A stretch of 64,000 nucleotides of DNA, taken from the NCBI GenBank assembly GCA_009268125.1, contig WBOU01000006.1, forward strand, positions 319,807 to 383,806, given 5' to 3'. Both the position numbers and the translations under genes were made by a program. The stretch is from Chloroflexia bacterium SDU3-3 (GTDB lineage: Bacteria; Chloroflexota; Chloroflexia; Chloroflexales; Roseiflexaceae). Position 1 is the stretch's first letter. Each line of letters starts with the position of its first letter. Of the stretch, positions 3,260-37,024 are shown piece by piece. The notes beneath the pieces were generated by a model, which was given only the letters and a program-made list of their open reading frames with translations, made no database searches and was not told where the DNA came from.

Positions 3260-5740
3260 ATGTCTGAACCAATCACCCCGCACGATTTCCCCGCGATCCG
3301 CTGGCGCGGCCAGTGGGTGTGGGTGCCCGAGGAGCCAGTGCGGCCCAGCGGGTTCTGGCAGGCCGACCCCAGGCCGCCGCGCGAGCGCCACGGGCTGTTC
3401 CGCCGCAGCTTCTGGCTGGATGCGCCGCCCCAGCGCGCCCCGGCCCGCATCAGCGCCGACGCGCGCTACGCCCTGTGGGTGAACGGCCACGAGCTGGCGC
3501 GCGGCCCCATCCGCAGCCAGCCGCGCCGCATGCACTACGACATGGCCGACCTCGCGCCGCTGCTGCGCCAGGGCGAGAACGTGGTGGCGATCTACGTCAA
3601 GCACTACGGCCAGGCCACCTCGTTCTGGATGCCAGCAAAGCCCAACAACACACTGGGCGGCACCGGCGCGCTGGTGTTCGAGGCCGACCTGGGCGCGGCG
3701 GGCTGGCTGGCCACCGACAGCACCTGGAAGGCCCAGCTGGCCAGCGCCTGGGGCGAGGGCGGGCGCGACGGCACCGACCACGGCGGCGGCGTGCCGGTGG
3801 AGGTGTTCGACGCGCGGCTGCTGGCCCACAGCTGGCGCGGCCTGGGCTTTGACGACAGCAGCTGGGGCCAGGCCCAGCCCATCCCGGCCATGCACGTGGG
3901 CGGCTTCGCCCGCGCCCAGCCCCCCGCCGACCCCTACGGCGCGCTGCTGCCGCGCCCGTTCGGCCAGCTGGGCGGCCAGCTGCGGCAGCCCGCAGCGGCC
4001 AGCGTGGCCCTCGGCCCGCAGCCCACGCAGGCGGGCGGCCCCATAGCCCAGCTCCAAGCGGCGCTGGCGCTGCCCTTCGGCGCGGCGCAGGCGGCGGAGC
4101 TGCCGCTGGAGCTGGAGCTACCGCCCGGGCGGGCGGCGCTGGTGGTGATCGACATGGGCCGCGTGGTCTCGGGGCTGGTCGGCTTCGCGCTGGATGCCCC
4201 GGCGGGCACCACGCTCGACCTCTCCTACGCCGAGGAGCCGCTGGCGGCCAGCATCAGCATGGACAAGATGCGCGCCGGGACGCGCTACACTGCGCGCGGC
4301 CACCACGACGCGTTCGAGCTGTTCGACTCGAACGGCTTCCGCTACGCCTACGCGCTGATCGGCGGGGGCGGGCGGGTGGCGCTGCGCAGCTTCGGCGTGC
4401 GCGAGCGGCTCTACCCCTGGCAGGGTGAGGCCAGCTTCACCTGCGACGACGAGGAGCTGAACCGCATCTACCGCGCGGGGCTGCGCACCGTGCAGGTATG
4501 CTCGCACGACGCGCTGATCGACTGCCCGACCCGCGAGCAGCGCGCGTGGGTGGGCGACGCGGTGGTGCACCAGATGGTGCACCTGGCCACCAACGCCGAC
4601 TGGCGGCTGGCCTGGCACTACCTGGCCATGGCCGACTCGCCGCGCCCCGACGGGCTGCTGCCCATGACGGTGGTGGGCGACATCGAGGCCAGCGGGATGT
4701 ACAGCATCCCCAGCTGGTCGCTGCACTGGCTGCACGGGCTGCACGCCCTGATGCGCTTCGGCGGCGACCGCGAGGCCGCGCAGGCCCGCATGCCCACCGC
4801 CGAGCGGGTGCTGCGCTGGTTCCTGCCCTTCCAAGATGCCAGCGGCGTGCTGCGCGATGTGACCGAGTGGGGCCTGATCGACTGGGCCAGCATCTCGACC
4901 GAGGACGCCAGCGCCGCGCTGACCGCGCTGTGGGCCAGGGGCCTGCGCGAGTTCGCCGAGCTGGCGGGCTGGCTGGGCGACCACGGGCGGCGGCGCTGGG
5001 CCGAGCAGGCCTACGGGCGGGTGCGCGAGGGCTTCGAGCAGTTCTGGGACGCGCGGCGCGGCTGCTACTGCGACCACATGCTGGGCGCGGCGCTCCAGCC
5101 TGCGGTCAGCCAGCTGCCGGGGGCGCTGGCGATTGTGGCGGGGCTGGCCCCGCAGGAGCGCTGGGGCCAGATCGTGGCGGCGATCACCGACCCGGCGCGG
5201 CTGGCGGTGCGCTCGTGGATGGGCAACGGCGCAGGCGAGCAGTCCATGGAGCGCTGGCAGGCCCAGGTGGAGCGCGGCGAGTACACCATCACGTGGGATG
5301 TGGAGCGCGAGATCGTGCTGGCCGAGCCTTTCATGAGCTACGTGGTGCACGACGCGGTGGCGCTGGCGGGCCAGGCCGACAGGCTGCCCGCCATGTACCG
5401 CCGCTGGTCGCAGTTCCTAGCGGGCGGCTACGACACGCTGGGCGAGTGCTGGGACTTCGGAACCCACGCCCACGGCTGGAGCAGCACACCCACCCGCGAC
5501 ATGGTGTTCTACACGCTGGGCATCACGCCCGCCAAGCCCGGCTACGCCCACGCCCGCGTCGCGCCGCGCCTAGGCGGGCTGGCCTGGGCCAGAGGCAGCG
5601 CGCCCACACCCCACGGCCCCATCCACGTGGCGGTCGACCGCGAGCGGGTGGCGGTGGACTCGCCGGTGCCGTTCACGCTCGACCTGCCCGGCCAGCCGCC
5701 GCTGGAGCTGCCCGCTGGCCAGCATGAGAGAACGTATTAA
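3260..5740 (+). CDS. Alpha-L-rhamnosidase-like glycoside hydrolase (GH78 type)
   Basis: Predicted glycoside hydrolase of 826 aa. The N-terminal third is beta-rich (WVNGHELARGPIRSQPRRMH, an accessory jelly-roll typical of GH78), followed by an (alpha/alpha)6 catalytic region starting at CDDEELNRIYRAG. The motif DCPTREQRAWVGD corresponds to the conserved 'CPxREc..W.GD' acidic motif that supplies catalytic acids in GH78. No signal peptide is seen, so it probably acts in the cytoplasm on imported rhamnosides. It starts 27 bp after the permease gene, evidently in the same operon. The TAA stop is joined directly to a dispersed repeat block. Confidence 0.85.
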   Translation: MSEPITPHDFPAIRWRGQWVWVPEEPVRPSGFWQADPRPPRERHGLFRRSFWLDAPPQRAPARISADARYALWVNGHELARGPIRSQPRRMHYDMADLAPLLRQGENVVAIYVKHYGQATSFWMPAKPNNTLGGTGALVFEADLGAAGWLATDSTWKAQLASAWGEGGRDGTDHGGGVPVEVFDARLLAHSWRGLGFDDSSWGQAQPIPAMHVGGFARAQPPADPYGALLPRPFGQLGGQLRQPAAASVALGPQPTQAGGPIAQLQAALALPFGAAQAAELPLELELPPGRAALVVIDMGRVVSGLVGFALDAPAGTTLDLSYAEEPLAASISMDKMRAGTRYTARGHHDAFELFDSNGFRYAYALIGGGGRVALRSFGVRERLYPWQGEASFTCDDEELNRIYRAGLRTVQVCSHDALIDCPTREQRAWVGDAVVHQMVHLATNADWRLAWHYLAMADSPRPDGLLPMTVVGDIEASGMYSIPSWSLHWLHGLHALMRFGGDREAAQARMPTAERVLRWFLPFQDASGVLRDVTEWGLIDWASISTEDASAALTALWARGLREFAELAGWLGDHGRRRWAEQAYGRVREGFEQFWDARRGCYCDHMLGAALQPAVSQLPGALAIVAGLAPQERWGQIVAAITDPARLAVRSWMGNGAGEQSMERWQAQVERGEYTITWDVEREIVLAEPFMSYVVHDAVALAGQADRLPAMYRRWSQFLAGGYDTLGECWDFGTHAHGWSSTPTRDMVFYTLGITPAKPGYAHARVAPRLGGLAWARGSAPTPHGPIHVAVDRERVAVDSPVPFTLDLPGQPPLELPAGQHERTY

Positions 5741-27689: not shown

Positions 27690-28349
27690 GTATGATCAAC
27701 GCTCTGCGGCGTGGGGATGCGCCCTTGCCTCACCCTGGCAGACCGATCTTGTTCCGCTGTGAAGGATAGCGGCTCGATGTTCAGAAGCTATAAAGATACT
27801 GTTTGGCATGTGTGCGGATGTGGTGCGGCAAATGGCACTTTTCTGCGTAGCCCGTCTGAATACGACGCCACATGGGCCGAGCGGGGAGGGAGCAACAACA
27901 ATCCCACATTGCGGTCATCGCCCCAGATCCGATGCCTGCAATGATCTCCAACGGGTGTAGGGGCGGGTCTGGTGCCCGCCCCATCGCCATGCGCCGAAAT
28001 CATCGAATCCCGAATCCGATGATTTCGGCGCGTTCCGTTACGCTCTGCGCCGCCCGAACCGCATGGGCGTTCGATGTGCGCAACAACGACAGCGTGGGTG
28101 GGCACGAGGCTTGCCCCTACGGAACGGATCGCATCGCTGGCGCGGCATTGCCGCCAAGGGGGAGACACCATCAGGCGTACCTGTGTTCGGCATGGCCTGG
28201 CACGCACATCTGCGGGTCGCCACCGTAGGGCAGGGAAGATGTGCTACGATAGGCGCACACGTCTATGAGCACACGTCGCAGTATCCATGAGCAAAGAAGC
28301 ACCAACCGCTGGGAACGCTGCCTACATCCGCACATCAAGGAAGCAACCC
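27690..28349. repeat. Gene-free gap with family C repeats
   Basis: Family C cores lie at about 27957-27985 (GTAGGGGCGGGTCTGGTGCC, direct) and 28098-28122 (GGGCACGAGGCTTGCCCCTA, inverted), bracketing about 140 bp that contains a near-palindrome CGAAATCATCGAATCCCG with its partner CGATGATTTCGG. No convincing gene is present; a promoter for the following plus-strand genes probably lies at its right end. Confidence 0.6.
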
Positions 28350-28802
28350 ATGATCCCATGTCCCCACTGCGGCCTGCCGAACATCCGCGAGCGCAGCATC
28401 TGCAAGCGCTGCCGCCAGCCGCTGCTGGCTACCGGGCCAGCGCAGCAGGCCGCCAGCACCGGCGACACCAGCGCGATCTTCCACGACCACATTGGCAGCC
28501 GCATGCTCATCTTCTCGCCCGCCGCGCTAGAGTACGACGCGCCAGGGGTGCGCTTCACCGCGCCCTACTGGAACATCAAGTCGATCGACCGCACGCTGAT
28601 GAGCTACATGATGAACATGTACTTCAACCCGAACAACACCGACTTTCGCCAGTGGGAGCAGCGCCTGCGCCCGCCGATCGCCGCCAGCGAGCCAATCCGC
28701 TACAGCATCCCGATCTCGGGCTTCGGCTACCCGCAGAACAGCCAGCTGCACGCCGAGCTGCGCCGCAGGATGCCCTGGCTGCAGCTGCACCCTCTTCACT
28801 AG
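28350..28802 (+). CDS. Zinc-ribbon hypothetical protein
   Basis: 150-aa protein. The first 25 residues form a zinc ribbon, CPHCGLPNIRERSICKRCRQP, with four Cys in CxxC pairs. The rest has no motif I recognise; it is polar and probably soluble (FTAPYWNIKSIDRTLMSYMM, then RYSIPISGFGYPQNSQLHAE). I chose the ATG giving MIPCPHCG, behind CAAGGAAGCAACCC. It lies 41 bp before the XRE/NTPase gene on the same strand and may form an operon with it. Confidence 0.65.
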   Translation: MIPCPHCGLPNIRERSICKRCRQPLLATGPAQQAASTGDTSAIFHDHIGSRMLIFSPAALEYDAPGVRFTAPYWNIKSIDRTLMSYMMNMYFNPNNTDFRQWEQRLRPPIAASEPIRYSIPISGFGYPQNSQLHAELRRRMPWLQLHPLH

Positions 28803-28843: not shown

Positions 28844-31195
28844 GTGACCGCAACGATCCCGTTTGGCAGATGGCTCCAGCAGCAGCGCAAAAAGCTCGAT
28901 CTCACCCAGGCCGAGCTAGCGCAGCAGGCCGGATGCGCCCTGGGCACCCTGCGCAATATCGAAACCGGCAGCGCCCGCCCATCCAAGCAGCTGGCGGCGC
29001 GGCTGGCCATGGTGCTCGGTGGCGAGCAGGAGCAGGTCGCCGCCATCGTAGCCTTCGCGCGCGGCACCGGCCCAGCGCCAGCCGTGCTGCCCGCCGCGAA
29101 CGCACGCCACGGCGCGCCCACGCACCTCACCGGCATGATCGGGCGCGAGCGCGAGCTGGCCGAGCTGCGCGGCATGCTGCTGCGCCCCGACGTGCGGCTG
29201 GTCACGCTCACCGGGCCGGGCGGCACCGGCAAGACCCGCGTGGCGGTCGAGAGCATCGCGCTGCTGGAGAGCAGCTTCCCCGGCGGGGTGTGGTTTGTCG
29301 ACCTCGCACCGGTGTCCGACCCGGCGCTGGTGCTGGCCGCCATCGCCCAGGCCGTGGCCCTGCCGCGCGGCGCGGGGCCGCTGCTGGCGCAGCTGGCCGA
29401 GGCGCTGCGCGGCGACGCGGCGCTGCTGCTGCTCGACAACTTCGAGCAGGTGGTGGATGGCGGGGCCGATGTGGCCGCCCTGCTGGGCGCGTGCCCCCGG
29501 CTGAAGGCGCTGACCACCAGCCGGATCGCGCTGGGCCTGATGGGCGAGCACGAGCTGCCCATCCCCCCGCTGGGCCTGCCCGACCGCGCGCGCCTCCCGC
29601 CGCTGCCCCAGCTCACACAGTACGAGGCCATCCGGCTGTTCCGCGCCCGCGCCCGCGCCGCCCGGCCATCCTTCGAGATCACCGCCGAGAACGCCGCCGC
29701 CGTGGCCGAGATCTGCTACCAGCTCGATGGCCTGCCGCTCGCTATCGAGCTTGCGGCGGCGCGCATCAAGCTCTTCCCGCCCCAGGCGCTGCTGGCCAAG
29801 CTCGACCGCAGGCTCGCCTTCCTCACCGGCGGGCGCGATCGGCCAAGCCGCCAGCAGACCATCCGCAGCACCATCGAGTGGAGCTACCGGCTGCTGGCCC
29901 CCGACGAGCGGCGCATGTTTCAGAAGATCGGCGTGTTCAGCGGCGGCGCGACCCTCGACATGATCGCGGAGGTGTGCGCCGAGCCGCAGGCCCAGGTGGA
30001 TGCGATCGTCTTCGCGCTGGTGAGCCACAGCCTACTCTACGTGCTGCCGCCGCGTTCCGACAGCCCCGAGATCAACCCGCGCATCGGCATGCTTGAGACG
30101 ATCCGCGAGTTCGCGCTGGAGCGGCTCGACGCGGGCGACGAGTCTGCCCCCACCCGCCGACGCCACGCACGCGCCTACGCCGCCATGGTGCGGCAGGGCC
30201 AGCCCCAGCTGCTCGGGCCAGAGCAGGCCGCCTGGCTGCGGCGGCTCAACATCGAGCACGACAACATTCGCGTCGCGCTGGCCTGGCTGCTGCGCGACGA
30301 CGCGGCCCAGGCCCTGGCGATGGCAGGCGAGCTGGCCGATTTCTGGAAGGTGCGCAGCCTGTTCGAGGAGGGGCGGCGCTGGCTGGATGCGGCGCTAGAG
30401 GCGAGCGTGGCGCTCCCGCTGGACCGCACCCGCATCCACGCGCTGCACGGCGCGCTGATGATGGCGGTCGACCAGGCCGATGTGCCCCGCGCCACCGACC
30501 TGGCCGAGCAGCATGTGGCCGCCGCCCGCGCCCTCGGCGACCCGCGCTACCTGGCCGAATCGCTGGCCGAGATGGCGCAGCTGGCCTACACCGTGGGGCG
30601 GCTGGATCGCGCCGAGGAGCTATTCCGCGAGGCGCTTGCGGACTTTCGCGCGCTGGGGAACCGCGAGCGGGTGGCCAATATGCTGCTGAACATCGGGCGG
30701 ATCGTGGGGGTGCACCGCTGCGATGCGGCGGTAGCCACGCCGCTGCTCAGCGAGAGCCTGGCGATCTACGAGCAGATCGGCTACCCGCTGGGCGTCGCGA
30801 TGGCAAGCCTCTGCCTCGCCTCCACCGCCATCCACACCGGCGATATCGCCCAGGTGCAGCGGCTGGGTAGGCAGGCGCTCGGCCTCGCGTGGGAGCTTGG
30901 CAACCAGGTGCAGATCGCGTTCAACCTCACCACCCAGGCGGTGGTGTCGATCCACGCTGGCGATCCGGCGCAGGCGGCGCGCTTCTACGCCGCCGCCGAG
31001 GCGATCTTCAGCGCGGTCGCGATGCCGCTCAGCCCCAGCGAGCAGGCCACCCACGACCGCTGGCGAGCCGAGGTGGTGGCCGCGCTCGACGGGCGGCAGG
31101 CGGCGGCGGCCTGGGCCGAGGGCGGCAGCGCACCGCTGGCGCAGATCGTGGCCGAGGCGCTCGGCCACAGCCAGCAGCGCACGGCGCGGGGATAG
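28844..31195 (+). CDS. XRE-family HTH / NTPase / TPR regulator
   Basis: 783-aa multi-domain signalling protein. Residues 7-58 are a Cro/C1-type helix-turn-helix (LTQAELAQQAGCALGTLRNI). Residues 97-400 are a STAND-type NTPase with Walker A GPGGTGKT (124-131), Walker B LLLLDNFEQV (about 194-203), and a GLPLAIELAAARI motif. The remainder is helical repeat, TPR-like (EMAQLAYTVGRLDRAEELF). Such proteins bind DNA or partners after ligand-induced oligomerisation; the signal is unknown. It uses a GTG start behind CGAAGGAACACCC. The gene after it faces the other way and is only 12 bp off. Confidence 0.9.
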   Translation: MTATIPFGRWLQQQRKKLDLTQAELAQQAGCALGTLRNIETGSARPSKQLAARLAMVLGGEQEQVAAIVAFARGTGPAPAVLPAANARHGAPTHLTGMIGRERELAELRGMLLRPDVRLVTLTGPGGTGKTRVAVESIALLESSFPGGVWFVDLAPVSDPALVLAAIAQAVALPRGAGPLLAQLAEALRGDAALLLLDNFEQVVDGGADVAALLGACPRLKALTTSRIALGLMGEHELPIPPLGLPDRARLPPLPQLTQYEAIRLFRARARAARPSFEITAENAAAVAEICYQLDGLPLAIELAAARIKLFPPQALLAKLDRRLAFLTGGRDRPSRQQTIRSTIEWSYRLLAPDERRMFQKIGVFSGGATLDMIAEVCAEPQAQVDAIVFALVSHSLLYVLPPRSDSPEINPRIGMLETIREFALERLDAGDESAPTRRRHARAYAAMVRQGQPQLLGPEQAAWLRRLNIEHDNIRVALAWLLRDDAAQALAMAGELADFWKVRSLFEEGRRWLDAALEASVALPLDRTRIHALHGALMMAVDQADVPRATDLAEQHVAAARALGDPRYLAESLAEMAQLAYTVGRLDRAEELFREALADFRALGNRERVANMLLNIGRIVGVHRCDAAVATPLLSESLAIYEQIGYPLGVAMASLCLASTAIHTGDIAQVQRLGRQALGLAWELGNQVQIAFNLTTQAVVSIHAGDPAQAARFYAAAEAIFSAVAMPLSPSEQATHDRWRAEVVAALDGRQAAAAWAEGGSAPLAQIVAEALGHSQQRTARG

Positions 31196-31207: not shown

Positions 31208-34200
31208 TCAGCGCCCATCATCATAGGACTGGATAAGCACGCACTCGGCGCTGATCTGCGGGGCCAGATCGCAGGCCGCGCGCAGATCGGGGTTGGTCAC
31301 ATCTGCGGCGTTCGGTCGACCGCCGCGCATCTTCCAGACCATGTAGCGGTTGTAGAGCGCCGCCGCCTTGGCCTTGGCCGCTTGGTCACCCGACACCTGG
31401 TCGTAGAGGCTGAGCGCCTGCGTGTAGGCCTCCCATGCGCGGTCGTAGTCGCCCACCGCATAGTAGGCGTTGCCCTGGCTCAGGTAGGCCTGGGCCTGCT
31501 CCATCGTAGTCGCATCGCTATTGTTTAGCACGCGGTCGCCCGCCTGGATCGCAGCCCCCGCCGCGTGCTCCTGCACACTAGCGGGCAGCACATCCAGCGC
31601 GCGCTCGGCCTCCACCTGCGAGATCAGCAAGTTGTAGGTCGAGATACCCTGGATGCCCACGTAGCCAGCCGCCGCCGCCACCACCGCCGCCGCCACCGCC
31701 GCGCGGATCAGGTGCCTGGGCAGCTGGGCCAGCTGGCCCAGGGCGTAGGCGACCACCGCCGCGCCGCTCACCGCCAGCCCAATGTTGAGCGGGCGCAGCA
31801 GCGGCACCATGCCCAGCATCCCGGCGGCCAGCATCAGCCCGCCTGCGGCCACGGCTGCGAAGGGGAAGTAGTCGCGGATGCCCAGCACGCGGCGCATGGC
31901 CATCGGCATGATGCCGACCCAGTAGACCACCGGCCCAACGGTCAGCAGGCCGCTAAAGGCCAGCAGCGCCAGCGCCACGTAGATCGGCGCGGGCAGCACG
32001 CTGGCGAGCGGCGCACCTGCGGCGTGATCGGCCAGGAAGATCGCCAGCAGCACCATGCCCGCCGCCGCCGTAGCCCCGGCGCGGCTGCGCAGCACCACAA
32101 AGCCATAGTGCTCTGGCTCCACCGGGCTGCGCACCGCCTGCAGCCGCGTGTCGATATCCTCCTGCAGGCTCGTGAACCAGCCGGTGATGCCCTCGATGTG
32201 CATATCATCGCCGACGCGATTTTCCAGAAATGCCCCCGTCAGCAGCGCCATCGGCATCCTCCACAGCTTGCGCTCGATCCGCAGCCAGCGCCCTACATCG
32301 CGCCAGCGGAAGTGCTGGCTCAGCTCGCCCCGCGCATTGTAGTAGGCGATCCCCTCAGTGTCCGTCACGAAGAGATCGGGCTGCTCGCGGCTCAGGTCGC
32401 CCAGCGCCACGAACGAGATCACGCCCACCGCCACCACAGCGTAGATCGCACCATAGAGCACCAGCAGCACCGCCAGCACCACCAGGCTGCGCAGCGGATC
32501 GAATGTGATCTGCAGCGTGGCCAGCTGCGCCACCCGCGTGATCGTGGCGCTGGGCGCGAACACCGCCATCACCAGCATGGCCATGGGCAGGGCGATGACC
32601 GAGAGCACACGCAGCAGCGGCAGCTGCGAGTTGGGGAAGCGGGCCACATACTGCTTCTCTGGCTCGGCGGCGAGGATGGCAGCGATCTGCTGCGCCACCT
32701 CGCCGGGGCCGACCCGGCGGCGGATCATGCGCAAGTGGTAGAGCAGCTGCTCGCGGCCCACCACATAGCCCCAGCTGCGCACATAGGCCAGGCACTCGCG
32801 GTAGCGTGCCAGCGCCTGCTCGTAGTCCTGGGCGTCGGCCAGCAGCTGGGCCTGCATGCCGATCGCCACCGCCTCAAGGCGGAAGTCGCTCTGCTCGCGG
32901 AAGACCGCGATCAGCTGGCCGATCATCTGCTCGGCCTCGGCGCGCCTGCCCTGGTTGATCAGCGACTTGGCCACCACCACATCCAGCCAGGCCCGCGTAT
33001 GCGCATCCTGGGCCGCTGGCCGCGCCTTGGCCGAGGCCAGCAGCGCCCGCGCGCGCTCGGGGTAGCCAAATTTCCGCACGATATCGGCGATCTGACGCTC
33101 AGTGCGCAGCATGCCCACGTCGTCGCCCAGCTCGCGGAATGCGGCCATGGCCCGCTCGTAGCACGAGAGCGCGGCGCGGAACAGCCAGATCAGCGTCCAG
33201 TTCTGGTAGGATGCGAAGTAGCGCGGCCTGGGCAGCACCTCGTCGCCCGAGCGGATCAGCAGCAGCAGCGGGTAGAACGGCAGCGACATCAGCCAATCCC
33301 AGAGCATGGCCAGCCCGCGCAGCAGCGGGTTGCGCGGGTAGGCGGGCACATGCCAGCCGCCCGTGCTCGCGCCCAGCGCCTGGTAGGCCTCGCCCAGCAG
33401 CCGCCAGATCTCGGCGGCATGCTCGCGGCTGCCCAGATCCTCGTAGGTGGCCCGCGCGCGGTGGTAGATCTCGGTGGCCTGCACCCAGCGGGCGGTCTCG
33501 ACGTAGATCTCGCCGAGGGCCTGCTGCACCTGGGCGCGCAGCATGGCGTCCATATCCGCTATGCGCAGCAGCTCGCTCAGGTGCAGCTCGGCCTGGTCGA
33601 GGGCCAGCGAGGCCTTCTCGAAGCGCGCCCGCATAAAATGCAGCTTGTAGGTGCAGCTTTCGCCCAGCGGGATGTCGCGCGGGATCTGCAGCAGGGCCTC
33701 GGCCTCGCCCAGCTGGTGCTCGGCCTCGGCCTCGCCGAAGGCGAGCAGCAGGGCATCCATGCCGGCATGCTGGTCGGCGGCCAGCTGGTGGTAGAGCGCC
33801 TCGCGGCGGTAGATATCCCACGAGCCGCTGACCGCCACCCACACGGTCTGCTGGGCGAGGCCGCGCGGCAGCGGGGTGGCCGGGGCCAGCGACACCGCCA
33901 GATCGCCAAAGTAGCGCGCTAGGTCGCGGTTGATCTGGGCGAACCCCTCGGCGTCATCGCGCCGCCACTCATCCAGCAGCGCCTCGCGCACCTCGTCGTG
34001 GTAGGCGTAGCGGGCCTGATCCATCGGGCGCACGAAGCTGTAGCCGCGCAGCAGCTCCAGCACGCGGTCGTTGCCGTCGTCGCGCTCGCGCAGCACGCCC
34101 AGCACGCCCTCGTCGAACCAGCGCGGGATGGCCGCGCGGCGCAGCACATCGGCCTGCTTTGGCCCGGCGGATGCCAGGATCTGCTGGATGGAGGTGCCGA

Positions 34201-34393
34201 TCAGCTCGCGCGGGGCCATCGCGCCCAGCGCCAGCAGCGGGTCGGTCACGCGGTCGATCTCACGGCTCAGCGCCGAGACCGCCTGCGCGCCCTGGGGGGC
34301 CAGCTCGCGCCCGCACTGGCGGCAGCGCAGGGCGTCGGGCGGGTTGGCCGCCCCGCAGTTCGGGCAGGAAACATCAAGATCGTCCGACATCAC
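31208..34393 (-). CDS. Zinc-ribbon, winged-helix, TPR and membrane protein
   Basis: 1061-aa protein. Cys10, 13, 24 and 27 form a zinc ribbon. Residues about 45-145 look like the winged-helix part that follows the NTPase in STAND proteins (ILASAGPKQADVLRRAAIPR, then YAYHDEVREALLDEWRR). Residues about 160-580 are TPR-like helical repeats. Two helices near 600-670 and a further group near 770-900 are membrane-spanning; between them lies a soluble stretch with FRWRDVGRWLRIERKLW. The C-terminus carries another TPR (GNAYYAVGDYDRAWEAYTQA). It lies 21 bp after the ATPase gene on the same strand. The exact function is unknown. Confidence 0.8.
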   Translation of the reverse strand: MMSDDLDVSCPNCGAANPPDALRCRQCGRELAPQGAQAVSALSREIDRVTDPLLALGAMAPRELIGTSIQQILASAGPKQADVLRRAAIPRWFDEGVLGVLRERDDGNDRVLELLRGYSFVRPMDQARYAYHDEVREALLDEWRRDDAEGFAQINRDLARYFGDLAVSLAPATPLPRGLAQQTVWVAVSGSWDIYRREALYHQLAADQHAGMDALLLAFGEAEAEHQLGEAEALLQIPRDIPLGESCTYKLHFMRARFEKASLALDQAELHLSELLRIADMDAMLRAQVQQALGEIYVETARWVQATEIYHRARATYEDLGSREHAAEIWRLLGEAYQALGASTGGWHVPAYPRNPLLRGLAMLWDWLMSLPFYPLLLLIRSGDEVLPRPRYFASYQNWTLIWLFRAALSCYERAMAAFRELGDDVGMLRTERQIADIVRKFGYPERARALLASAKARPAAQDAHTRAWLDVVVAKSLINQGRRAEAEQMIGQLIAVFREQSDFRLEAVAIGMQAQLLADAQDYEQALARYRECLAYVRSWGYVVGREQLLYHLRMIRRRVGPGEVAQQIAAILAAEPEKQYVARFPNSQLPLLRVLSVIALPMAMLVMAVFAPSATITRVAQLATLQITFDPLRSLVVLAVLLVLYGAIYAVVAVGVISFVALGDLSREQPDLFVTDTEGIAYYNARGELSQHFRWRDVGRWLRIERKLWRMPMALLTGAFLENRVGDDMHIEGITGWFTSLQEDIDTRLQAVRSPVEPEHYGFVVLRSRAGATAAAGMVLLAIFLADHAAGAPLASVLPAPIYVALALLAFSGLLTVGPVVYWVGIMPMAMRRVLGIRDYFPFAAVAAGGLMLAAGMLGMVPLLRPLNIGLAVSGAAVVAYALGQLAQLPRHLIRAAVAAAVVAAAAGYVGIQGISTYNLLISQVEAERALDVLPASVQEHAAGAAIQAGDRVLNNSDATTMEQAQAYLSQGNAYYAVGDYDRAWEAYTQALSLYDQVSGDQAAKAKAAALYNRYMVWKMRGGRPNAADVTNPDLRAACDLAPQISAECVLIQSYDDGR

Positions 34394-34414
34394 TGTTCTC
34401 CCCGGCTCCTCGCC

Positions 34415-35329
34415 CTACCACTGGTCGTCGGCGGTGGCCTTCGCGCCATTGGCCTGCTCTAGGTTGTCGCCCACGATCCCCATCACCGAGGGGTTGCCGC
34501 CGATCGCCTGGCTCAGCCGCAGCATCTCGGCGTCGGTGATCACGCCCAGGCCCCGCCGCTCGCGCAGGTACACCCGCACATCGTCATCCGACAGCGCATC
34601 CAGCGAGATACGGCCCAGCACATCATTCCACTCGACCCCGAAGCTGGGCGCGCGCCGCCCGGCCAGCACCGCGATCACGTTGGGCAGGCGGCCATCGCGC
34701 ATGCGGGCCAGCAGCTCGCCCACCACCCAGCGGTTTACCGGGCTGGCTGCCCAGCCATCGTCGTCGCTGCTCAGCCGGTCGTAGCTGTCGAACAGGAAGA
34801 CGGCGCGCTGCTGCTGGCTCAGGTCGGCCAGGCATTCAAAAAACACGCTGGTGATACGATCTTCGATGGCGCGGCGGATGAGCGGGTCGCTGGTCTGGAT
34901 GTTGAAGGTGTTGCCGGTGATCGTGGTGTTGCCCTGGCTGATCGTCACATCGCCGCCCACGGTCGCGCTGCTCAGGTTGATCGGGGCGGGCGCAGGCGCG
35001 CCGACTACATCCACCTGCACGTGGGGCGTGGCAGCATCCACCAGCGCCTGCGCCAGCCGTGCGAAGCCGCCAGCGCCCAGCAGGTCGCGGCCCTTGGTCA
35101 TCAGGGTGAGGGCGTCGTAGGCATTGCCATCGGCAAAGTCGAACAGCGCCAGCGGCAGGCTGCGCGCCTGCGCCAGCTGCTCGAAGGTGTGGATGAGCCA
35201 GCTCTTGCCCATCCCAGGCCCGGCAGTGAGAACCATGATTCGGCGCGGGGAGGTGCCATCCATCATCTTCTGGAAGGCGTCGATCTGGCGGGTTCTATCG
35301 ACAAAAAGCTCGCGCAGCGTTCGTGTCAT
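34415..35329 (-). CDS. STAND/AAA-type NTPase, stand-alone
   Basis: 304-aa P-loop ATPase. Walker A is GPGMGKSW (38-45), Walker B AVFLFDSYD (about 176-184), and VIAVLAGRRAPSF is a sensor-like strand. Between them, residues about 118-148 form a Gly/Thr/Asn-rich patterned stretch (GGDVTISQGNTTITGNTFNI) that resembles a beta-solenoid linker. The protein stops just where a STAND winged helix would begin; that part seems to be supplied by the next gene. I chose ATG 35329 (MTRTLRELFVDR), since the longer frame includes sequence without resemblance. Its physical partner is probably the downstream protein. Confidence 0.8.
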   Translation of the reverse strand: MTRTLRELFVDRTRQIDAFQKMMDGTSPRRIMVLTAGPGMGKSWLIHTFEQLAQARSLPLALFDFADGNAYDALTLMTKGRDLLGAGGFARLAQALVDAATPHVQVDVVGAPAPAPINLSSATVGGDVTISQGNTTITGNTFNIQTSDPLIRRAIEDRITSVFFECLADLSQQQRAVFLFDSYDRLSSDDDGWAASPVNRWVVGELLARMRDGRLPNVIAVLAGRRAPSFGVEWNDVLGRISLDALSDDDVRVYLRERRGLGVITDAEMLRLSQAIGGNPSVMGIVGDNLEQANGAKATADDQW

Positions 35330-35623: not shown

Positions 35624-37024
35624 CTAGGCCGCAAACAGGTCGAAGTAGTCCTCCAGGCGGGGCTGCCAGCCCTGGGCGCGGAACACGCCCTCGTGCGTGT
35701 CCAGCTCGTAGGTGCCACGGTGCTCACCCCTGGCGATGGTGTGCAGCGCGGCCACCAGCGCATCCACATCCTCCAGCGTGTTGGCCAGGCCCACGCTGGC
35801 GCGCACCAGGCCCACCGGCTTGGATGTCGGCTCGCAGGAGAGCTCGTCGTCCGAGAGGTTCAGCAGGCGGCGCAGGTAGGGCTGGGCGCAGAACGCGCCG
35901 CTGCGCACCGCGATGCCGTACTCGCTGCTCAGCACCGCGCCGATCAGGCGGTGGTCCACACCCTCGATCTGGAAGGGCACCACGCCCAGGCGGCTGGCCG
36001 CGTTGGCCGGGTCGGTATCGCCGAAGATCTTTATGCCGGGCACCTCGGGCAGCCGCTCCAGCAGCGCGGCGGTCAGCGCCGCCTCGTGTGCGGCTACATT
36101 GTCCATGCCGATCCGCTCCAGCGCCTGCACGGCGGCGGCCAGCGCCACCGCGCCCACCACGTTGGGCGTACCCGCCTCGTCGCGGGCGGGCGCATCGGCC
36201 CAGATGATGTCGCTGGGCGTCACCACCTTGATCGTGCCGCCGCCCACGGTCTCGGGCGTGCCGTTGGCGAAGGTGTCGCGCCGCCCGATCAGCACGCCGG
36301 TGCCAAACGGGGCGTAGAGCTTGTGGGCCGAGAGCGACACATAGTCCAGGTGGGCCGGGTCATCCAGGTCGCCGATGTCGATCGCGCGGTGGGGCGCGAG
36401 CTGCGCGCAGTCCACCGCGATCCTGGCCCCCGCCGCGTGGGCCTGCTCGGCGATGCGGTGGATGTTGGGCAGCGTGCCGGTGACATTGCTGCCGCCGCTG
36501 ATCGCCACCAGCTTCACGCGGCGCTCGTGCTGCTTCAGCAGGTAGGCCAGGTGATCCTCATCCAGCTGGCCGCGCTCATCCACGCGGATGTAGGCCACGC
36601 GGGCCACCTGCCGCCACGGCAGATCGTCGGCGTGGTGCTCCAGCTCGCTGGTGATCACCACCTCGCCGGGGCGGAAGGCCAGCCGCCGCGCCAGCTTGTT
36701 GATTGCCCAGGTGGTGTTGGCCCCGAAGATCACCACGTGCTGGTCGGGGCGCGCGCTCACGAAGCCGCCCACGATCGTGCGGGCGTTCTCGAAGGCGGCG
36801 GTGGAGATCTGCGAGGAGAAGCCGGTGCCACGGTGCACGCTGCTGTACCAGCTGAGGAATTTGTTGACCGTCTCGTGGACCGAGCGCAGCGCGGGGGTGC
36901 TGGCGGCGTGGTCGAAGTTGATCGGGCGCGTACAGCTGCCATCCAGCAGCGGCACCTGGTTGTCGTGCCCGGTCACCTGGGCGCTCAGATCGAACGATGC
37001 GGCGGATGTGGCGTGTGAACTCAT
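35624..37024 (-). CDS. SufS-like class V aminotransferase / cysteine desulfurase
   Basis: 466-aa PLP enzyme. The lysine that binds PLP is K235 in SLSAHKLYAPFGTG; His130 (ELEHHAD), Asp205 and Gln208 are the other cofactor contacts. A Cys in RSGAFCAQPYLRR matches the group II desulfurase active-site loop. It would remove sulfur from cysteine, or act on a related substrate. The ATG has a GAAGGGAGCC ribosome site. Upstream is a SAM-I riboswitch with a terminator, so expression should fall when S-adenosylmethionine is abundant. No suf genes are adjacent. Confidence 0.88.
   Translation of the reverse strand: MSSHATSAASFDLSAQVTGHDNQVPLLDGSCTRPINFDHAASTPALRSVHETVNKFLSWYSSVHRGTGFSSQISTAAFENARTIVGGFVSARPDQHVVIFGANTTWAINKLARRLAFRPGEVVITSELEHHADDLPWRQVARVAYIRVDERGQLDEDHLAYLLKQHERRVKLVAISGGSNVTGTLPNIHRIAEQAHAAGARIAVDCAQLAPHRAIDIGDLDDPAHLDYVSLSAHKLYAPFGTGVLIGRRDTFANGTPETVGGGTIKVVTPSDIIWADAPARDEAGTPNVVGAVALAAAVQALERIGMDNVAAHEAALTAALLERLPEVPGIKIFGDTDPANAASRLGVVPFQIEGVDHRLIGAVLSSEYGIAVRSGAFCAQPYLRRLLNLSDDELSCEPTSKPVGLVRASVGLANTLEDVDALVAALHTIARGEHRGTYELDTHEGVFRAQGWQPRLEDYFDLFAA

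Follow-up and report, generated by a model that had tools for sequence, protein, structure and literature searches.

A STAND-type ATPase apparently divided over two genes, with a membrane-bound sensor half, in a Chloroflexia bacterium

Animal and plant immunity makes use of signalling proteins of the STAND/NLR kind, which are regarded as single chains whose winged helix locks the nucleotide from within. Can such a switch be divided between two proteins, one of them in the membrane? This question is raised by two neighbouring genes, here called A and B, in a stretch of 64,000 nucleotides (nt) from Chloroflexia bacterium SDU3-3 (contig WBOU01000006.1, positions 319,807 to 383,806; the window). 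An earlier note, made from the letters of the window, had proposed a split STAND protein at this place, and both open reading frames (ORFs) were found where it had put them, on the minus strand:

34415..35329, minus strand: gene A, the 304-residue ATPase half of a STAND protein, with a nucleotide-binding domain (NBD) and helical domain 1 (HD1) and without a winged helix (sequence, alignment, AlphaFold2 model, profile-profile comparison)
31208..34390, minus strand: gene B, a 1060-residue membrane protein with a winged helix and a TPR sensor region (sequence, Pfam, alignment, model)

The start codon of A is the ATG at 35329. B starts at the ATG at 34390 or the GTG at 34393 and ends at 31208, leaving 21-24 nt between the genes depending on which start is used. 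Our analysis indicates that A and B very probably form a two-chain STAND switch. The complete proposal, that this switch is tethered to the membrane and recruits a CHAT or caspase effector through pairing of a common motif, is given a probability of roughly 0.6. As a variant of the STAND kind, the pair has a well-supported anatomy; the output step is one that we infer.

Where the STAND chain is divided

The following elements of A are relevant to its assignment:

35201..35221, minus strand: Walker A motif (P-loop), residues 37-43, GPGMGKS (read from the sequence; G39, G41, K42 and S43 invariant among 19 homologues)
34778..34801, minus strand: Walker-B-like strand, residues 177-184 (F180, D181 and Y183 invariant in the alignment)
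34448..34588, minus strand: HD1, residues 248-294, with a GxP motif (G278 and P280 invariant; model)

A begins with an FVDR-type start of a STAND NBD and continues with Walker A (AGPGMGKSW, residues 36-44), a Walker-B-like motif (FLFDSYD, residues 178-184), AGR at 223-225 and GNP at 278-280, soon after which the chain ends. Two hallmarks of STAND proteins are therefore present in A, a P-loop NBD with Walker A and B motifs invariant in the 19 homologues and, after it, a helical domain of three helices carrying GxP. The AlphaFold2 model (mean predicted local distance difference test score, pLDDT, 75.9) contains the NBD, the three HD1 helices and a disordered insert at residues 103-141. No N-terminal effector domain is present; in homologues, the LFVDR/WIDR motif lies only a few residues from the N-terminus. 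At the other end, an acidic tail closing with a tryptophan (DDxW; window 34418-34432) is kept in three families, and it is lost or altered where the insert motif described below is lost.

The earlier note had stated that the ATPase ends before the winged helix, and alignment, AlphaFold2 model and profile-profile comparison agree in finding no such domain after the HD1 helices of A. The model aligned with residues 11-267 of MalT (Z 14.0, root-mean-square deviation (rmsd) 4.8, 224 aligned residues). In MalT, the NBD comprises residues 1-181, the helical domain 182-248 and the winged-helix domain (WHD) 249-336 (PMC10427625), so the end of A falls close to the expected start of the winged helix. 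Corresponding regions were 257-497 in Avs3 (8dgc, Z 12.9), 159-392 in Sr35 (7xc2, Z 12.8), 148-371 in NRC2 and 110-307 in PH0952. Generic AAA+ proteins topped the Foldseek results for A, and these relatives surfaced only in a second-look alignment; sequence searches of the PDB with A alone or with a 19-row A profile gave nothing useful, and the AAA_16/NACHT matches of the window protein were below the Pfam cut-off.

The domain absent from A is found near the start of B:

33896..34210, minus strand: winged-helix domain of B, residues 61-165 (profile searches, model, profile-profile comparison)
33995..34003, minus strand: YHD of B, residues 130-132, at the MHD position directly after the wing (alignment, model, profile-profile comparison)

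In the model of B (pLDDT 79.7), this domain consists of helices at 76-85, 94-101 and 107-114, wing strands at 120-122 and 128-130, and a helix at 132-145. The histidine at the MHD position is H131, right after the wing, and R135, following YHD, is invariant in all homologues. A winged helix with an MHD-like motif, a further STAND hallmark, is thus present in B and not in A. No Pfam model matched either the winged helix or the PH-like domain of B described below.

Comparison with single-chain relatives places the split at the domain boundary. A 108-residue profile from near the start of B (A5, residues 54-161) matched, in other Chloroflexota, the stretch directly after NBD-HD1 of single-chain proteins, and at least 11 single-chain ORFs matched the profile of A and then, 12-25 residues on in most cases, the winged-helix profile of B. 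In an alignment of 11 such proteins (A12), columns 6-304 aligned to A (99.9%, E 2e-31) and columns 318-415 to the winged helix of B (99.2%, E 2e-19) in profile-profile comparison. The MHD-position histidine is nearly invariant in these proteins, and their profile detected MalT (8bob, E 1e-11, residues 100-350) and PH0952 (6mfv) in the PDB. The single chains (e.g., L080, L082, L170 and L174) are homologous to the pair over NBD, HD1 and WHD, and lack the insert motif of A. The search for fused homologues that the earlier note had suggested therefore yielded proteins combining both parts, all of them distant relatives; within the A/B family itself no fusion was found. Presence of all nucleotide-binding oligomerization (NOD) domains in one polypeptide, a usual although perhaps not defining trait of STAND proteins, does not apply to the pair, which is split in 25 of 25 genomes. 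Among the papers searched, none described a STAND protein split between HD1 and WHD, which is weak evidence of absence.

STAND proteins at rest keep ADP between NBD and WHD, and the histidine of the WHD sits at the beta-phosphate (PMC10427625, PMC10586772). It could be argued that A and B are functionally linked, yet the winged helix of B is a relic or an adaptor that does not complete the nucleotide site of A. Loss of the MHD histidine in two sub-clades and the conserved acidic-tryptophan tail that A itself possesses would fit such a role. However, the split is exactly complementary to the single-chain relatives and the arginine after the YHD position (R135) is conserved in all, making a relic improbable and a two-chain switch the better explanation.

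Conservation of the gene pair

To assess the occurrence of the pair, both proteins were used as queries against 82 genomes of its order, one of filamentous bacteria. A was detected in 25 genomes from three families. B was found in each of these and additionally in G064, in which its gene starts at a contig end. In 24 of the 25 carriers of A, the genes are neighbours on one strand, A preceding B; in the remaining genome (G027) both lie at contig ends. B thus accompanies A in every carrier and is linked to it wherever linkage is visible, as the co-occurrence check proposed earlier called for; no unlinked homologues appeared, nor does A have a winged helix of its own, and the claim of a STAND protein split over two genes holds on both this linkage and the complementarity to A12. 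The families (f1, f2 and f3) were read as Roseiflexaceae, Chloroflexaceae and, presumably, Herpetosiphonaceae, and carriers of A with names include Oscillochloris sp. ZM17-4, Ca. Oscillochloris fontis and a Roseiflexaceae metagenome-assembled genome. Outside the order, a 400-genome sample of the phylum contained no A/B pair, only single-chain relatives. A contig scan with A alone had no match; with a closer alignment, it returned 14 A loci and a weak Streptomyces P-loop match.

Sequence identities of A and B co-vary between genomes (Mantel r 0.94, reached in 0 of 5000 permutations; 16 genomes). In several lineages the two reading frames overlap by about 11-14 nt, an arrangement that resembles translational coupling.

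Because the pair is conserved across 25 genomes, chance origin of the ORFs is excluded. The mere 21-24 nt between A and B in the window would also suit one STAND gene broken by a stop, a frameshift or an assembly error. This explanation has practically no chance of being correct and was ruled out, given that 25 genomes are split alike, with gaps ranging from about -14 to +350 nt and each of the three relative frames represented, and that B possesses its own start region (a zinc ribbon or another N-terminus). Fusion by programmed frameshift was also ruled out, as the relative frame is +1, +2 or 0 by lineage and hence unconserved.

A second split set was detected in a related genome (L079, G034:C71). 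It consists of a caspase gene (3468-4487), a gene for an NBD protein (4536-5456) and, overlapping the latter, a gene for a soluble winged-helix-TPR protein whose ORF extends to 8344. On the other strand, this set is followed by macro-domain and DUF4433-like (DarG/DarT-like) genes. A winged-helix-TPR protein related to the start of B also occurs at L173:1381-4167 (G298:C137), with no NBD partner within the 19.9 kb read. The winged-helix tree groups L079 and L173 with the A/B family (support 0.978 against the fused proteins) and the NBD tree does not, so the split may have arisen once or several times.

The membrane-bound half and a proposed mechanism

Beyond its winged helix, B contains the following parts:

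34301..34366, minus strand: zinc ribbon, residues 9-30, CxxC...CxxC (Pfam Zn_Ribbon_1; absent in Chloroflexaceae homologues)
32666..33823, minus strand: TPR superhelix, residues 190-575 (Pfam, model, fold comparison, hydropathy)
32411..32623, minus strand: first pair of membrane helices, residues 590-660 (model, hydropathy)
32135..32374, minus strand: putative PH-like domain, residues 673-752, six strands and a C-terminal helix (from the order of elements in the model)
31643..32083, minus strand: second group of membrane helices, residues 770-916, about five helices (model, hydropathy)
31220..31507, minus strand: C-terminal TPR, residues 962-1057 (Pfam, alignment, model)

The order of zinc ribbon, winged helix, TPR and two membrane groups given in the earlier note is correct for the window; the zinc ribbon is not a general feature, being missing from Chloroflexaceae. 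The membrane part is kept in all clades of the alignment. A fold search with the whole of B returned a list filled by TPR proteins. The superhelix matched domain III of MalT (1hz4; Z 19.0, rmsd 5.5, 327 aligned residues) and resembles the TPRs of MalT and of the peptide-sensing proteins Rap, NprR and AimR, a likeness that fits a ligand sensor. A hydrophobic hairpin within it (residues 355-380, window 33251-33328) is conserved in all homologues and could dip into the membrane. Near the C-terminus, Cys1040 and Cys1050 are nearly invariant (alignment A8).

MalT of E. coli and PH0952 of Pyrococcus horikoshii are among the known systems closest to A and B joined together, with the order NBD-HD-WHD-TPR and no N-terminal effector. 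They differ in being one soluble chain, in contrast to two chains and a membrane, and MalT also ends in a DNA-binding domain. With NLRs, Avs proteins and bNACHT, the pair has in common the NBD-HD1 fold and the GxP and MHD-like motifs. Unlike these, it has no N-terminal effector, is split between HD1 and WHD, has a membrane-anchored sensor half and shows conserved synteny.

We propose the following mechanism. A would supply NBD and HD1. B would close the nucleotide site with its winged helix, a domain attached to a TPR superhelix in the cytoplasm and also to the membrane. At rest, B would hold ADP-bound A with YHD over the nucleotide and thereby keep A at the membrane. A signal received by B, whether a ligand of the TPR, an event at the membrane sensed by the PH-like domain, or one at an outer C-terminal TPR, might open the A/B interface, whereupon A could exchange ADP for ATP and oligomerise through NBD-HD1. 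Clustering of A would then bring together copies of its insert, whose Gly-rich beta motif could pair with its counterpart at the end of a peptidase encoded by a separate gene (CHAT in this case, caspases in relatives); proximity would switch the peptidase on. A natural split of this kind would move the lock to a second, membrane-bound protein, and the choice between locked and free states would become a binding equilibrium that is directly measurable.

Insert motif, candidate effectors and genomic setting

The proposed output depends on one further element of A:

34886..34996, minus strand: insert of A, residues 112-148, a Gly-rich beta motif in common with CHAT and caspase tails (profile searches, alignments)

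The insert comes after the helix that follows strand 2 and ahead of the Walker B strand, and is mostly disordered in the model. Its profile (A9), run against the 82 genomes, found many ORFs other than A (E 6e-8 to 1e-3); the best match of a reversed-profile decoy had an E of 0.02. In the ORFs that were inspected, the motif was located C-terminal to caspase domains (L214, L216, L228 and L233) and to CHAT (L215); it precedes a TIR domain in L221 and lies N-terminal to NACHT/nSTAND domains in L218, L230, L231 and L232. In Chloroflexaceae (L214-L233), it takes the form FGxGxxxGDVxIGDVAGxDIIK and occurs on caspases, CHAT, TIR, NACHT-FGE, transmembrane-TPR and PDZ-like proteins, with up to 14 copies per genome (G029); this form looks like an uncharted effector-pairing module.

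The genome of the window contains just one further clear copy, which forms the tail of a CHAT protein on contig C2. The insert of A and this tail are identical at 18 of 40 positions and score 91, compared with at most 59 in 2000 shuffles. Inserts of other clades used as queries brought up CHAT proteins in G062, G048, G043 and G050; a partner CHAT is also present in G030. In three families, the CHAT tail of the same genome matches the A insert of that lineage. Mean motif similarity was 67 for A and CHAT of the same clade, 45 for A between clades and 36 for CHAT between clades, and the true assignment of CHATs to clades ranked first among the 60 possible ones (12 of 720 label orders, the smallest number attainable). 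The L079 set repeats this pattern, as its caspase tail and NBD insert have a common motif of their own (score 48; 0 of 2000 and 7 of 2000 shuffles), different from the A/CHAT motif, to which its similarity is at noise level. If such matching reflects pairing, the A/CHAT motif would offer a testable wiring rule for the many proteins with CHAT, caspase, TIR and NACHT domains in filamentous Chloroflexota for which no partner is known.

Comparable pairs are known. In BASS amyloid signalling (Dyrka et al. 2020, reviewed in PMC7889193), and likewise for effector-associated domains (Kaur et al. 2020, PMC7159879), a short module, thought to pair homotypically, is present on receptor and effector, including CHAT and TIR effectors. 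One motif on a receptor and on the C-terminus of an effector is also what A and CHAT display. However, the receptor copy in BASS pairs is at the N-terminus of the NLR, whereas that of A is internal (residues 112-148, inside the NBD), and receptor and effector are adjacent there, whereas CHAT is on contig C2 and A/B on C6. A/CHAT is not an established member of any of the ten BASS families (BASS1-10), and amyloid formation by its motif would be hypothetical. A more specific picture, a three-part membrane-anchored NLR-like signalosome in which the switch spans two chains and an oligomer of A templates a lineage-specific, possibly amyloid-like, beta motif from within its NBD onto a CHAT encoded elsewhere, is tentative and, on balance, doubtful.

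Several observations weigh against the complete proposal. Partner CHATs were picked by their match to the A insert, so same-clade scores are inflated. The CHAT gene is not adjacent to A/B, lying on C2 and not C6. The insert motif is lost in Ca. Oscillochloris fontis and in a Chloroflexaceae genus (g20), and no matching CHAT was found in G057, which implies that CHAT coupling is not essential to the pair. That genus also has YAD in place of YHD, and Herpetosiphonaceae have YID, FID or FNT; nucleotide locking by B may therefore differ among clades. On the sensor side, the PH-like domain is a putative, model-based assignment, and the C-terminal TPR is only probably outside the cell, judged by an odd number of membrane helices (two plus about five), a location that fits the two nearly invariant cysteines.

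Some of these points would also suit a two-chain switch whose output is B itself, through its membrane helices, PH-like domain and outer TPR, with the motif of A an ancestral leftover or serving self-assembly of A only. One genus has lost the motif and retains A and B, the membrane part of B is conserved in all clades and the CHAT gene is unlinked to A/B. Nevertheless, the motif matches the CHAT tail of the same genome in three families and occurs elsewhere on effectors and NTPases, and we regard output by B alone as unlikely. Recruitment of a CHAT or caspase effector remains the preferred output, at a lower confidence than the two-chain STAND part.

STAND proteins and CHAT/caspase peptidases are characteristic components of defence and of regulated cell death, and the L079 set, with its caspase, adjoins DarT/DarG-like genes, suggesting that A/B could be the phage sensor of an antiphage or cell-death system. 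The setting of the pair argues otherwise. In the window, A/B is surrounded by metabolic genes. Of the 14 relatives whose sequence extends far enough upstream, 9 have a DAO-type oxidoreductase dependent on flavin adenine dinucleotide (FAD) directly upstream of A; genes resembling rarA and aroQ (named from sequence) flank the set in many f2 members. Such a conserved chromosomal setting in many relatives, unlike that of mobile defence genes, is vertical synteny and not a defence island; in addition, PADLOC found no match of A or B to known defence models. A defence role is accordingly rather unlikely. Of the earlier suggestion of an unusual signalling or defence-like design, the split STAND part is supported; the conserved synteny does not favour a mobile defence cassette.

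The DAO-type oxidoreductase (e.g., L072:9798-10952 and L122:5640-6797) is about 44-200 nt from A and may be an operon partner or provide a metabolic input. In the window, the place upstream of A is taken by an enzyme of the pyridoxal phosphate (PLP) fold (Aminotran_5; 35624-37024, minus strand). MalT is inhibited by the PLP enzyme MalY, and the position of this enzyme next to A may be more than chance or a coincidence. On the other side of the pair, a single-chain helix-turn-helix-STAND-TPR protein (28844-31195, plus strand) is convergent to B, 12 nt from its end. It is preceded by a 171-residue ORF (28287-28802, plus strand; no Pfam match at 0.001) that starts like a zinc ribbon and includes a segment similar to the PH-like part of B (IFSPAALEYDAPGVRFTAPYWNIKSIDR).

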